This document shows, piece after piece, positions 34,766 through 40,419 of a stretch of 40,419 nucleotides of DNA. The translations under genes were made by a program, and so were the position numbers. The DNA is taken from positions 5,761 through 46,179 of the forward strand of contig MHVR01000005.1 of NCBI GenBank assembly GCA_001825315.1. Reading direction: 5' to 3'. The notes under the pieces were generated by a model. That model made no database searches. It was not told the DNA's origin and saw only the letters and a list, made by a program, of their open reading frames with translations. How positions within the stretch are numbered: position 1 is the first letter of the stretch; the number at the start of each line of letters is the position of its first letter. The stretch is from Candidatus Zambryskibacteria bacterium RIFCSPHIGHO2_02_FULL_43_14. Its GTDB lineage: Bacteria > Patescibacteriota > Minisyncoccia > Phycocordibacterales > Zambryskibacteraceae.

Positions 34766-35533
34766 ATGAAGTTGAGAAATAAGGCGGTATTTGCAGTTTC
34801 AGCGCTTATTATCGGCGGTTTAGCATCAGTCGCGTACGCAGATCATTCATGGGGCGATTATCATTGGGCGCGTACGGCAAACCCTTTCACCCTTGAACTT
34901 GGAGATAATGTTTCTTCTGCATGGGATAGCTATCTCGCAACCACGGCAAGCGATTGGAGCGTTTCCATAGTGCTCGATACTCTTGTCAAACCGGGGAAAA
35001 CTACGTCACGCACATGTAGGGCGACAAACGGACGCATTGAAGTCTGTAGTGCTAAGTACGGCTTTAACGGCTGGCTTGGAATAGCCCAGATTTGGGTAAG
35101 TGGAAACCATATTGTAAAAGGTATAACAAAAATGAACGATTCATACTTCAATACCCGCACTTACAACACCTCCGCATGGCGTAATCTTGTAATGTGTCAG
35201 GAAATCGGCCATACTCTCGGCCTCGATCACCAAGACGAAATCTTTGACAACCCGAACCTTGGCACATGTATGGATTATACGAACAATCCATCAACCAACC
35301 AACACCCAAATCAGCACGATTACGACCAACTTGAAGCAATCTACGCGCATCTCGATAACGTAAATACTATATCCTCTTCCAATTCAGTAAACAGAAGACA
35401 AGATGTTGATTTAGATAATCCATCAGCATGGGGCAAAGCAATCAAAAAGGATAAACAAGGCAGAAACTCACTCCATGTTCGCGATCTTGATAAAGGAGAA
35501 AAACTCTTTACTTTCGTAGTCTGGGCTCAATAA
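34766..35533 (+). CDS. Secreted matrixin-like zinc metalloprotease, atypical motif
   Basis: Signal peptide; MCQEIGHTLGLDHQDE followed by TCMDYTNNP (Met-turn-like). Confidence 0.8.
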   Translation: MKLRNKAVFAVSALIIGGLASVAYADHSWGDYHWARTANPFTLELGDNVSSAWDSYLATTASDWSVSIVLDTLVKPGKTTSRTCRATNGRIEVCSAKYGFNGWLGIAQIWVSGNHIVKGITKMNDSYFNTRTYNTSAWRNLVMCQEIGHTLGLDHQDEIFDNPNLGTCMDYTNNPSTNQHPNQHDYDQLEAIYAHLDNVNTISSSNSVNRRQDVDLDNPSAWGKAIKKDKQGRNSLHVRDLDKGEKLFTFVVWAQ

Positions 35534-36318: not shown

Positions 36319-37260
36319 TTATACCTTAAGATATTTTCTGATAGCAAGAAGACTTGAGATGGCGCCGATGAAAACTCCAGAAGCTACGATGATAAGAGCA
36401 ATTTCCAGGAAATGACGAAGATAGTAGGAGAAGATATTGAAGCCGATAAAGAAACTTTCAGTAGTACTCCCAAGCCAATAAGTTAAAGGCAGGAGTAGTA
36501 ATAAAGTCAGAAATCCAGCCGTTATTCCATAGATAATCCCAACCACCACAAAGGGCCCTTGAATATAAGTGGTTGAAGCGCCTACCAGACGCATGACGCT
36601 TATCTCATCTCTAGCGATATAGATAGTCAAGCGGATAGTATTGAAAGCAATTAGTACAGAAATAATCGCTAGAAAAATCGTTAGGGCGAAACCCATGCGG
36701 TCGGCGGAAGCGATGATATGAGTGAGTTTGTCTATAGCCGCCTTATTTTCGAAATAGTTGATGCGATCAACAATGGTAATGCCATCCGAGGAGAGCGCAT
36801 TGCCACCTTCGAGAAACTCCGCCACCGAGGCATATTGGGAAGGATCTCTGGCTTTAATATTGAGAACTGCTCCCAAGGGATTCTCCCCCAACTCGTCAAG
36901 CGCAGAGAGGATAGATTGGTCGCTTGAGTGTCTCTCTTTGAAAGCGGTTAAGGCCTCATCCCGTGATACGTAAGTAACCAGAGAGACCTCCGTGAGAGAT
37001 TCAAGAGCGTGTCTAACATTTAAAATATCCTCTTCTTTTGCCGAGGTGACAAAGGTAACGTTGATGTCGATTTTGTTTCTTAGTTCTAGAAGTGTGATAT
37101 CAAGAATAGCGCCGGAGAAAGAAATAAGGCCAACGACCATGAGAGTTACCATCATGACCAGAACGGAGGCGAGAGAAACTGTGCCATCTCTCCAGAAATT
37201 GAAAAAGCCGGTGCGTATAATCCTTTTTAATTTCATCCAGAACATTCTCTTATTGCTCAT
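36319..37260 (-). CDS. ftsX: Cell division protein FtsX
   Basis: FxxxGxxS topology, IYIARDEISVMRLVGASTTYIQGPFVVVGIIYG. Confidence 0.93.
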   Translation of the reverse strand: MSNKRMFWMKLKRIIRTGFFNFWRDGTVSLASVLVMMVTLMVVGLISFSGAILDITLLELRNKIDINVTFVTSAKEEDILNVRHALESLTEVSLVTYVSRDEALTAFKERHSSDQSILSALDELGENPLGAVLNIKARDPSQYASVAEFLEGGNALSSDGITIVDRINYFENKAAIDKLTHIIASADRMGFALTIFLAIISVLIAFNTIRLTIYIARDEISVMRLVGASTTYIQGPFVVVGIIYGITAGFLTLLLLLPLTYWLGSTTESFFIGFNIFSYYLRHFLEIALIIVASGVFIGAISSLLAIRKYLKV

Positions 37261-37955
37261 TTAAAATATTTGCCGGCCTTGTCGTCGCGCACAACTCTGC
37301 CTTGTTCTATGGCGACGACTCGACCGTTTAACGAATCAATTATACCCTTATTGTGTGTAGTCAGGATGACGGTAGTGCCCAGATTGTTAATTTTTTTCAG
37401 TATCTGAACCACATCATAAGTGTTTACCGGATCAAGATTGCCTGTCGGCTCATCCGCTATGATAACTTCTGGCTCGTTGACCAATGCCCGGGCGATAGCC
37501 ACTCTCTGTTTTTCCCCGCCCGAGAGTTCGCGCGGGAAATTCCAAATTTTAGGCGTCAAATCAACCAACTCAAGCACATGAGGTACATCTGATTCTATTT
37601 CCTCATCTGTTCGGCCTGCCGCCTCCATAGTGAAAGCGATATTCTCATAAACAGTCTTATTGGGCAAAAGACGAAAGTCTTGGAAAACCATACCCACTCT
37701 CCTACGAAATTCATTAATTTCCTTCTTATCGAGAGCGTGAACGTTAACAGATTCGTAATATATAACGCCACGAGTCGGCTTCTCTTCGCCGAGAAAGAGT
37801 TTCAATAATGTGGTTTTGCCCGCGCCGGATGGTCCGACGATGGAGATAAATTCCTTTGGTTCAATGGAAAAAGTTACTTCCTCGAGAGCTACAGAACTAT
37901 CTGGATAAACTTTGGAAACACGGTCAAAAACAATCATTACCTTCAATTCTATCAT
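37257..37955 (-). CDS. ftsE: Cell division ATP-binding protein FtsE
   Basis: [66 protein letters not shown]. Confidence 0.96.
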
Positions 37956-37967
37956 GCGGAGATTTTC

Positions 37968-40043
37968 TCAACAAGATTTTATATCAATAACCTCGACGGC
38001 AACGGGTTCAGTCGGAATTTCGGTACTCTCTTCAGGAACAACTGTCTCCGGAATAATCGTCTCTTCAAGAATCATCTCTACTTGCCCAGCCGACGTATCT
38101 TCTACAACTTCAACAGAGGAAGAAATATCCAATAAAGACTGAGTCGAAGTGGATATTTTTATTTCTGGTTCTACAACCTCAATTTCTTCTATAGAAGTTG
38201 GGGATGGACCATTTGTTGCTGTAGGAGTAGATAAATCAAAAATGGGAGAAAATATATTTACCAATTCAACGGGGATAATTTCTGTGTTTTTTTCCAAAAC
38301 ATTATTTGACTTACCAGGTGTCGGTATTGGGTCTACAAATGAGCCAGTGCCATTAGGGATGCGCGCGTAAGATTTGTTACTTGGAATATTGCTACCATTG
38401 ACACAATCACCATCAGGATCTGAGGGAATCTCGTCATTTATCTCTCCAGAGGTAGGAATTAGATCACAATAATCATAGTCTGAAGTATATGCGTATGAAT
38501 CTTGAAGTATATTACTGGCGTTGAAGAGCTTCACTGTATCACCAGTATTATTCCATACTGATTTGTTCATATAAACTACGAGATAACCACTGGCAGGAAT
38601 AGTGGTCGTGGCTGGTAACGTATTTAGGTTTGTTATGTCTGTATTGCCCATACCGCCAGAAGCATCTTGTGTATACCAGCCACTAAGGTTAACGGGAGCC
38701 CCAGTAAGATTATATAGTTCGACCCATTCGCCTTGTGGTTTGTCACTACTGTCTGTCCCAAAATCGAAGATAAAGTCTGGATCACTTGCATCACAACTTG
38801 CGTTATTTTGGTCACTACAGAGTGGTCCGTCTGGACGTGGTAAGAATTCGTTGATAACGACAGAAGCCGCGATTGTTTCTGCTGTTATCGATATATGAAA
38901 TCGCTCTTCATCTCTGAAACCGCTAGTTTCAAATGACGGTACGCCGTCCATCCATGCTTTATAAATAAGATCAAATTCGCACGTTTCGCCCCCAGTTATC
39001 GACTGACCAGAGAGAACCGAGATGGCAAAATCCCAGAGGCCAAAATCCACTGTCGTTCCGACTGAAAATGCTGATAAGGCGCCGCTATATGAAAGCACGT
39101 CGCTTGTGGCACTAAGAGCAAGCGCATCACACAAACTATCATCGCCACCAGTCTTCTCATACTCTACAGTATATTGCGTTGGCAAGCTTCCAACTACCAA
39201 GGAAACATTGGTCTGGAACTGTGATTCATCACTAGTGCTATTACTAATAACCCCTTCAAACCCAGTGTTCGAGAGAATGATATCGAGAATGCCTGCATCG
39301 AAAACACTTCCGCTAGAACTTTCGGCGTCTGAAAAATACGAAGTCGTACCGCTGAATCCTGTAAAAATCAAACCTATGCCAAAGAAAATAAAAACACTTA
39401 TTGTAAAAGGCGCTTTTGTCTTTCTCTTGGTATTATCAGAATAGACAAAATAAACCGGTCGCAAGACATCATCCATCTGATGAATACGTTTAAGCACTTT
39501 ATTTGTGGGAACTTTGGTCGAATCCCCTTTCTTACGTCGGATTACCTTGCGAATTTCTTTCCCAATATCGATAATTTCGTTGAGAATAACTAGCGCGGCG
39601 GGAAATGCAATAAGAAGTATAAATCCGACCGGCTGTCTGGCGAAGTCTAATAGATAACCGACATTCGGCGCGGTGAAAATTACTTTTCCTATGACATCAT
39701 TTTTCTTGACAGACGTCGGATCAGGTTCTTCGTTAGCATCGCCTTTTGCTTGATATAAGATTTTGTCTTGTATTTCACTAATTGAGATTATGCGGTGAGT
39801 CGTTGGGTAAGAAATGGAACTATCTTCTCCGAAAGTTATAATGTCTCCCACGTTGTAGACAGAAGCAGGCTTGATCACCACAATACTACCGGTCTTAATA
39901 AATGGCTCCATTGAGCCAGATTTTACGATCTTAATTTCAATATTGCCTTTTATCGGCAGAAGCGGGGCAAAGAAAAGAGAGGCCACTCCCACAAGAAGAA
40001 ACATGAATATTCCGTATGTAGCTTTGGCTATGAATCTTTTCAT
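37968..40043 (-). CDS. SipW-like signal peptidase fused to TasA/CalY-type segment and lamin-tail domain
   Basis: VKSGSMEPFIKTGSIVVIKP, YPTTHRI, AKGDANEEPDPTSVKKNDVIGKV; then FSGTTSYFSDAESSSGSVFDAGILDI; then INEFLPRPDG...GEWVELYNLTGAPVNLSGWYTQDASG. Confidence 0.85.
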   Translation of the reverse strand: MKRFIAKATYGIFMFLLVGVASLFFAPLLPIKGNIEIKIVKSGSMEPFIKTGSIVVIKPASVYNVGDIITFGEDSSISYPTTHRIISISEIQDKILYQAKGDANEEPDPTSVKKNDVIGKVIFTAPNVGYLLDFARQPVGFILLIAFPAALVILNEIIDIGKEIRKVIRRKKGDSTKVPTNKVLKRIHQMDDVLRPVYFVYSDNTKRKTKAPFTISVFIFFGIGLIFTGFSGTTSYFSDAESSSGSVFDAGILDIILSNTGFEGVISNSTSDESQFQTNVSLVVGSLPTQYTVEYEKTGGDDSLCDALALSATSDVLSYSGALSAFSVGTTVDFGLWDFAISVLSGQSITGGETCEFDLIYKAWMDGVPSFETSGFRDEERFHISITAETIAASVVINEFLPRPDGPLCSDQNNASCDASDPDFIFDFGTDSSDKPQGEWVELYNLTGAPVNLSGWYTQDASGGMGNTDITNLNTLPATTTIPASGYLVVYMNKSVWNNTGDTVKLFNASNILQDSYAYTSDYDYCDLIPTSGEINDEIPSDPDGDCVNGSNIPSNKSYARIPNGTGSFVDPIPTPGKSNNVLEKNTEIIPVELVNIFSPIFDLSTPTATNGPSPTSIEEIEVVEPEIKISTSTQSLLDISSSVEVVEDTSAGQVEMILEETIIPETVVPEESTEIPTEPVAVEVIDIKSC

Positions 40044-40051
40044 TTATTTAA

Positions 40052-40419
40052 TTAATTCCATCTGTTCCACCTAAATCGATTAAACCAGCCCGTAATACCA
40101 TGATTAATATTCCTCTTGTCTTTTTTATCATCGTGGCCATCATAGTCATTGTTGGAGTGATCATCGTCATCATCTTCATCGTCATATCCGCCACTCATCG
40201 AGAGCGGGCAGAAAATGGTATTCTGTTCTTCGAACAAATCTTTTAAAGTCTCATAATCTCCTCCGGGATAAACGGCGTTGAACATGTTTATCACTTCCGC
40301 AACTGTATAGGCGAAGTCTATGTCAGGATTGGCTGCGTTAAGAAGCGCGGCTACAGTTTGTCTGCCAAGCGCGTTAAGCCCTCCCCCGCCCTGATTCAAA
40401 ACTTGCAGGAGCGACTTAT
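40052..40419 (-). CDS. C-terminal part of a probable surface protein (truncated by window edge)
   Basis: Frame open to the edge: KSLLQVLNQGGGGLNALGRQTVAALLNAANPDIDFAYTVAEVINMFN..., then acidic Asp-rich stretch and basic/aromatic tail. Confidence 0.65.
   Translation of the reverse strand, partial: KSLLQVLNQGGGGLNALGRQTVAALLNAANPDIDFAYTVAEVINMFNAVYPGGDYETLKDLFEEQNTIFCPLSMSGGYDDEDDDDDHSNNDYDGHDDKKDKRNINHGITGWFNRFRWNRWN

Follow-up and report, generated by a model that had tools for sequence, protein, structure and literature searches.

The fused gene and its operon

We analysed a window of 40,419 nucleotides from Candidatus Zambryskibacteria bacterium RIFCSPHIGHO2_02_FULL_43_14, which spans C5:5761-46179 of a 618-kb genome in 23 contigs and whose right end is the contig end (G, C and L numbers denote genomes, contigs and loci). 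Its minus strand carries an open reading frame of 691 aa without internal stop. According to the original prediction, made from the letters alone, this single frame encodes, in order, a SipW/S26B-like peptidase, a basic cytoplasmic linker, a second membrane segment with a TasA/CalY-like signature, a beta-rich region, a lamin-tail domain (LTD) and an acidic tail. The stop-free frame and profile matches bear out this order:

37968..40043, minus strand: entire fusion gene, 691 aa; peptidase and substrate also fused in G003, G008, G012 and G020
39519..40043, minus strand: ER/SipW-type signal peptidase domain, residues 1-175; TIGR02228, SEC11A/SEC11C relatives
39957..40013, minus strand: membrane segment 1, residues 11-29; hydropathy 2.39
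39912..39914, minus strand: S44, expected catalytic serine (SGSMEP); invariant, aligned with SEC11 SGSMEP
39795..39797, minus strand: H83, expected catalytic histidine (THR); invariant, aligned with SEC11 HR
39738..39740, minus strand: D102 of GDANEEPD, expected acidic residue; invariant, aligned with SEC11 GDN
39570..39626, minus strand: membrane segment 2, residues 140-158; hydropathy 2.31
39411..39569, minus strand: basic linker on the cytosolic side, residues 159-211; counterpart of the N-region encoded by the separate partner gene
39456..39476, minus strand: linker motif MDDVLRP, residues 190-196; alignment of the fusions and the G037 partner
39351..39407, minus strand: membrane segment 3, residues 213-231, hydrophobic core of the SipW-type signal; hydropathy, signal HMM, TIGR04088
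39333..39347, minus strand: predicted cut site TTS/YF, residues 233-237, between S235 and Y236
38859..39338, minus strand: TasA-like beta-sandwich, residues 236-395; AlphaFold2 model, hhalign to TasA/CalY
38364..38858, minus strand: lamin-tail module, residues 396-560; PF00932, similarity to the LTD of the separate G190 partner
38484-38750, minus strand: Pfam LTD core, residues 432-520; PF00932, 58.2 bits
37971..38363, minus strand: acidic Glu/Val/Pro/Ser/Thr-rich tail, residues 561-691; 24 D/E, 5 K/R
40052..40417, minus strand: last 121 aa encoded by the operon's third TasA-like gene, truncated at the contig end; N-terminal part at the end of contig C3

The LTD exceeds the Pfam gathering cut-off of 34.3, the linker is basic (16 K/R versus 6 D/E over residues 158-211) and the tail acidic, all as foreseen. 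Since three hydrophobic segments are present, with the strongly basic linker between the second and the third, we infer from the positive-inside rule an inside-outside-inside-outside topology. The N-terminus would lie inside, the catalytic domain outside and the linker inside again, and the third membrane segment would lead out to the cut site, placing the TasA-like domain, the LTD and the tail outside the cell membrane. The TasA/CalY-like signature is present, on the third of three membrane segments and not on the second.

The right edge of the window falls inside the gene upstream of the fusion gene. Two complete TasA-like genes (307 and 390 aa) and the start of a third are located at the end of contig C3, and a 379-aa homologue from G012, used as yardstick, suggests a gap of about 50 codons between C3 and C5. 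As read from the sequence, the operon order is tasA-like 1, tasA-like 2, tasA-like 3, the fusion gene, then ftsE and ftsX.

The ftsE- and ftsX-like genes, named from sequence, lie directly after the fusion gene (36319-37955), and such a pair is also found near the operon in G003, G008 and G020. The third TasA-like gene (40052-40417; L187:9916-10632) is without the usual FFSDTE signal motif, reads ALYAREAEPGITFATYGIDLKIDS, and is kept at the same place in G003, G008, G012 and G037. Upstream of this genome's own TasA-like genes, L187:5007-5924 (C3:35006-35923) encodes a 305-aa exported protein, perhaps of the CAP/SCP type; similar proteins are encoded next to the operon in G003 and G037. Another exported protein, with a HEIGHTLGLDH zinc-metallopeptidase motif, is encoded at 34766-35533 of the window.

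The peptidase half

The predicted SipW/S26B-like peptidase with its SGSMEP, THRI and GDANEEPD motifs was confirmed: residues 31-157 match TIGR02228 with 100.6 bits (cut-off 51.85), and S44, H83 and D102, and likewise D108 of GDANEEPD, are invariant over 18 CPR homologues. A search of the PDB with a profile of 18 related peptidase domains found SEC11A/SEC11C (E=2e-16 to 6e-15), and the alignment of S44, H83 and D102 to SEC11 indicates the Ser-His(-Asp) instead of the Ser-Lys type. Residues 35-177 also match the Bacillus SipW model NF046067 (E=1.2e-31); since the 109.8 bits are below its equivalog cut-off of 190, the peptidase is, as judged by this model, SipW-like and not a SipW ortholog.

Only one peptidase in the whole genome exceeded the TIGR02228 cut-off in a profile search of the contigs. 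A second, weak match on contig C14 (28.8 bits) is probably the housekeeping signal peptidase, and the search found no second SipW-type peptidase. Since the fused enzyme is the sole SipW-type peptidase found in the genome, it presumably also processes the free TasA-like proteins in trans.

Mature domain and predicted cut site

The beta-rich region of the original prediction corresponds to a beta-sandwich in the AlphaFold2 model of residues 236-395 (pLDDT 91.3, pTM 0.83). The first residues of this domain are disordered, as expected of a donor strand; in TasA, the donor strand comprises residues 28-38 (PMC9674648). Using hhalign, the mature domain aligned to Bacillus TasA/CalY (probability 95.3, E=2.4e-8, 133 columns, the first ~25 of which drive most of the match), and the alignment begins exactly at P1'. 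The Bacillus set used here matches the TasA structures 8aur and 5of1. Foldseek with a two-domain model gave mixed beta-sandwich matches, after which a single-domain model was made for the structure search; top matches of the mature domain were the donor-strand pilins FimA, CsuA and CfaB (TM about 0.48), and TasA was missing from the 50 best. By sequence, the mature domain had no match in the PDB, and PF12389 (TasA/camelysin) gave no Pfam match in the window protein. The separate G068 partner reached 19.4 bits against PF12389 (cut-off 22.5), and two free G003 substrates exceeded that cut-off.

The signal HMM detected residues 212-255 of the fused protein (E=8.9e-12), and TIGR04088, the profile of SipW-dependent signals, scored 18.6 bits near residue 235 (18.4 in a second run), just under its cut-off of 19. 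TTS/YF of the window protein combines a small P1 and an aromatic P2' after a hydrophobic core, as in SipW-dependent signals. Among 14 fusions, P1 is S/A and P1' aromatic (Y/F) in all, while P2' is F/Y/L and P3 is T in 13 each; the pattern matches that of 141 free substrates, and these counts lean towards conservation because the site anchor partly scored P1 and P2'. The membrane segment before the site has just 9-12 of 24 positions in common with the same-genus fusions. A substrate with aromatic P2' is poorly cleaved by E. coli LepB, and TasA with Phe at P2' is cut by SipW (PMC10269814).

Since P1, P1' and P2' are conserved and the alignment to TasA/CalY starts where the mature chain would start, sequence comparison supports a functional cut site in the fused chain, and the fused peptidase likely cleaves its own putative S235/Y236 site. 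At P1, however, Ser is found in 11 of the 14 fusions versus Ala in 129 of the 141 free substrates, and split partners of the same clade as the fusions have Ser too. With Ser rather than Ala, cleavage at the predicted site might be slow or fail altogether.

The fusion is shared and recurrent

One fused open reading frame of 462-522 aa is present in the same-genus genomes G003, G008 and G012 and in the same-family genome G020. These proteins align to about residues 1-395 of the window protein and are without LTD. That is, of the architecture sought in relatives, the peptidase-substrate fusion was found and the LTD was absent. Both halves of the fusion are under purifying selection (dN/dS of G003 versus G008: 0.14 for the peptidase, 0.20 for the mature domain). 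A frameshift or an assembly join might be suspected in a draft genome of 23 contigs with a window that ends at a contig end. But this end lies upstream of the fusion gene, peptidase and substrate are likewise fused in four further genomes of the family and dN/dS is well under 1 in both halves, which rules out such an artefact with near certainty. A fusion unique to this genome is likewise ruled out by its recurrence, and the objection that homologues are always encoded as two genes fails since fused and split forms both exist.

In our sample of the order, 45 of the 397 genomes encode a peptidase above the cut-off, eight of them with a fusion (G000, G012, G020, G137, G206, G257, G269 and G335). 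The phylum sample yielded the peptidase in about a quarter of the genomes (90 of 380) and at least nine fusions (G000, G477, G483, G505, G549, G559, G647, G671 and G727); seven phylum-sample fusions, besides the window's own, carry a Pfam LTD. Peptidase-signal-LTD fusions are thus also found in distant lineages. By record name, the relatives belong to the Parcubacteria group within Patescibacteria (Taylorbacteria, Nomurabacteria, Zambryskibacteria and Kaiserbacteria). L113 and L104 have only weak SipW-type signals (E 0.012 and 0.0042). Among the best 80 loci of a scan of named genomes, every fusion that carried a SipW-type signal belonged to Patescibacteria. The peptidase tree requires about 12 changes between the fused and the split state, of which starred branches force at least five, with gain and loss indistinguishable; the number of 12 is approximate since the 100-row tree scored the fused G727 as split.

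In six fusions (G137, G206, G269, G335 and two Kaiserbacteria), only a short acidic Glu/Pro-rich tail follows the signal; short-acidic-tail loci without a folded domain are L047, L096, L099, L167, L168 and L169. The LTD as the point of the fusion is ruled out, given sister fusions without LTD and fusions with just an acidic tail. In G464 (L229:548-1876), a camelysin-like stretch follows the peptidase in the same chain (PF12389 20.6 bits, below the cut-off), and behind it come an LPETG-like sequence and a membrane segment at the C-terminus.

The fused part belongs to a distinct partner class

Elsewhere in the order, 46 of the 72 examined loci consist of sipW and then a gene with a SipW-type signal. 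This partner overlaps sipW in 35 of the 46 split loci, by exactly 4 nt in 12. Its cytosolic N-region is long (signal start at median residue 37, versus 3 in other substrates), and 31 of the 46 partners have an LTD, versus 1 of 123 other TasA-motif (SipW-type substrate) proteins of the same loci; these LTDs were called with a home-made HMM, with a Pfam check on six separate partners and the Chisholmbacteria fusion. Judged by these sequence features, the downstream partner is a distinct class, set apart from the bulk TasA-type subunits. Nine of the 14 fusions carry the linker motif MD(D/E)(V/I)(L/F)xP or a sequence near it, and the separate G037 partner reads TDGVFAP; by this alignment the fused linker is the counterpart of the separate partner's N-region. 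The motif might contact the membrane or cytosolic part of the peptidase. The original prediction of a peptidase fused to its own substrate class therefore holds for a SipW-type substrate but not for a bulk TasA-type subunit: the fused part is a special partner, which is normally encoded by the adjacent downstream gene, has a long N-region and in most cases bears an LTD.

The two halves differ in their relationships. While the peptidase half is 81-82% identical to those of G003 and G008, the mature TasA-like part is only about 34-35% identical. In contrast, the TasA-like part and the LTD are 44% and 66% identical to the separate partner of G190, a member of another family whose own peptidase is only 43% identical to that of the window. 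The mature-domain tree joined the window protein and G190 (support 97/90), and a mature-domain clade of the window protein with the same-genus fusions was rejected (p about 1e-4 or less). On the peptidase tree, joining the window protein and G190 gave p=0.09 in the AU test, and so the discordance rests on the identities and the mature-domain test. The comparison suggests that the mature half was probably exchanged between lineages, with a junction near the cut site. The LTD module of the original prediction is thus present in the window protein, as part of a probably exchanged mature half, and optional in the fusions at large.

What the fused protein might do

On balance, we consider it probable that the operon is a Patescibacterial counterpart of the sipW-tasA fibre system, in which peptidase and dedicated partner act as one protein that cuts the free TasA-like subunits, and probably itself, releasing a TapA-like minor subunit. 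Acting in trans, the peptidase would process the operon's free TasA-like subunits; it would probably also cut its own S235/Y236 bond, either in cis or between two copies. The released TasA-LTD protein would be a low-copy minor subunit that starts, caps or docks the fibre, a role comparable to that of TapA in Bacillus; its LTD would be an exposed module open to exchange. In TasA fibres, subunits join through a donor strand at the N-terminus, and TapA is regarded as the likely starter (PMC9674648, PMC10151520). We count in favour of this reading the intact, invariant catalytic residues, and the free TasA-like genes at the end of C3 together with the single peptidase above the TIGR02228 cut-off. 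Gene order and overlap are what suggests a TapA-like accessory role of the partner, that of a low-copy fibre starter providing the first donor strand. Given the short-acidic-tail fusions, release of a structural subunit cannot explain every case. The term 'self-processing surface factor' of the original prediction agrees with the conserved predicted cut site and is too narrow, as the sole SipW-type peptidase presumably acts in trans.

Cleavage as proposed here is compatible with a neutral origin, in which a stop codon was lost between overlapping, co-translated genes and the parts work as before; only the role of the fusion itself would be dropped. Such an origin would suit three observations: most pairs overlap (35 of 46), the linker of the fusions is the counterpart of the N-region in the partner, and the tree alternates between fused and split forms. 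Repeated fusion of the same pair across distant lineages nevertheless suggests at least tolerance of 1:1 coupling, and the fusion is retained within the genus under purifying selection; we regard neutrality as a serious, though less than even, prospect. It is rather unlikely, in our view, that the chain stays whole as a membrane-held base, in which the TasA-like domain beside the peptidase would take the donor strand of a trimmed subunit, rooting the fibre at the processing site, while LTD and tail reach the cell surface. Such a base would fit the Ser at P1 in most fusions, the long N-regions already typical of split partners (median 37), which may be anchors rather than removable signals, and the membrane association of TapA in B. 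subtilis (PMC10151520). An uncut anchor, however, would not need the conserved P3, P1 and P2', and some fusions are without any TasA-like domain.

The six fusions in which nothing but a signal and short acidic tail follows the peptidase would suit a built-in competitor: the fused signal would occupy the active site of its own peptidase, be cut slowly, as P1 Ser would allow, and tune the activity on free substrates, the domains behind it being secondary. We think this improbable: the window protein, like many others, has a conserved folded domain as its mature half, this half is under purifying selection where tested, and the same domains also exist as stand-alone proteins, for which control of this kind would be weak. 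Release of a minor subunit aside, the peptidase might also carry the fibre starter in a combined processing and assembly machine, so that trimming and the first donor-strand contact occur on one membrane protein. We offer this as a tentative and doubtful proposal; if true, peptidase-coupled rooting of surface fibres, ending in exchangeable LTD-type surface modules, would have arisen repeatedly in Patescibacteria.

Significance and comparison with known systems

In the literature searched, which covered only a minority of subscription journals, we found no description of a SipW/TasA-type system in Patescibacteria or of a signal peptidase fused to its own substrate. The parts are individually known; that literature yielded neither the fusion and its recurrence nor the class of LTD partners nor such a system in Patescibacteria. 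These are tiny bacteria, most of them uncultured. All members in culture are said to live on other microbes (PMC12206443), which makes Patescibacterial surface fibres candidates for a role in host contact. The recurrent fusion points to the partner protein that should be tested first, offers a one-gene assay for SipW-type cleavage and hints at how such fibres are started.

ER/archaeal-type signal peptidases (SEC11A/C, TIGR02228) have the SGSMEP serine, the HR histidine and the GD-N aspartate in common with the fused peptidase, but carry no fused substrate; in longer haloarchaeal relatives (for example L130, L146 and L161), the signal HMM recognised no SipW-type signal. The tapA-sipW-tasA operon of B. 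subtilis likewise combines an ER-type peptidase, substrates with aromatic P2' and TasA-related mature domains, and tapA and sipW overlap (PMC10151520) as partner and sipW do in Patescibacteria. However, it encodes three separate proteins, whereas the partner described here is located downstream, fused and LTD-bearing. The sipW-calY operon of B. cereus (camelysins) resembles the present one in having SipW and several TasA/CalY-type substrates per operon, but has neither fusion nor LTD. The originally drawn contrast with Firmicutes, where SipW and its TasA-type substrates are separate proteins, holds. Bacterial LTD surface proteins share PF00932 on an exported protein; unlike in these, the LTD described here is tied to a SipW-type peptidase, by fusion or by adjacency.
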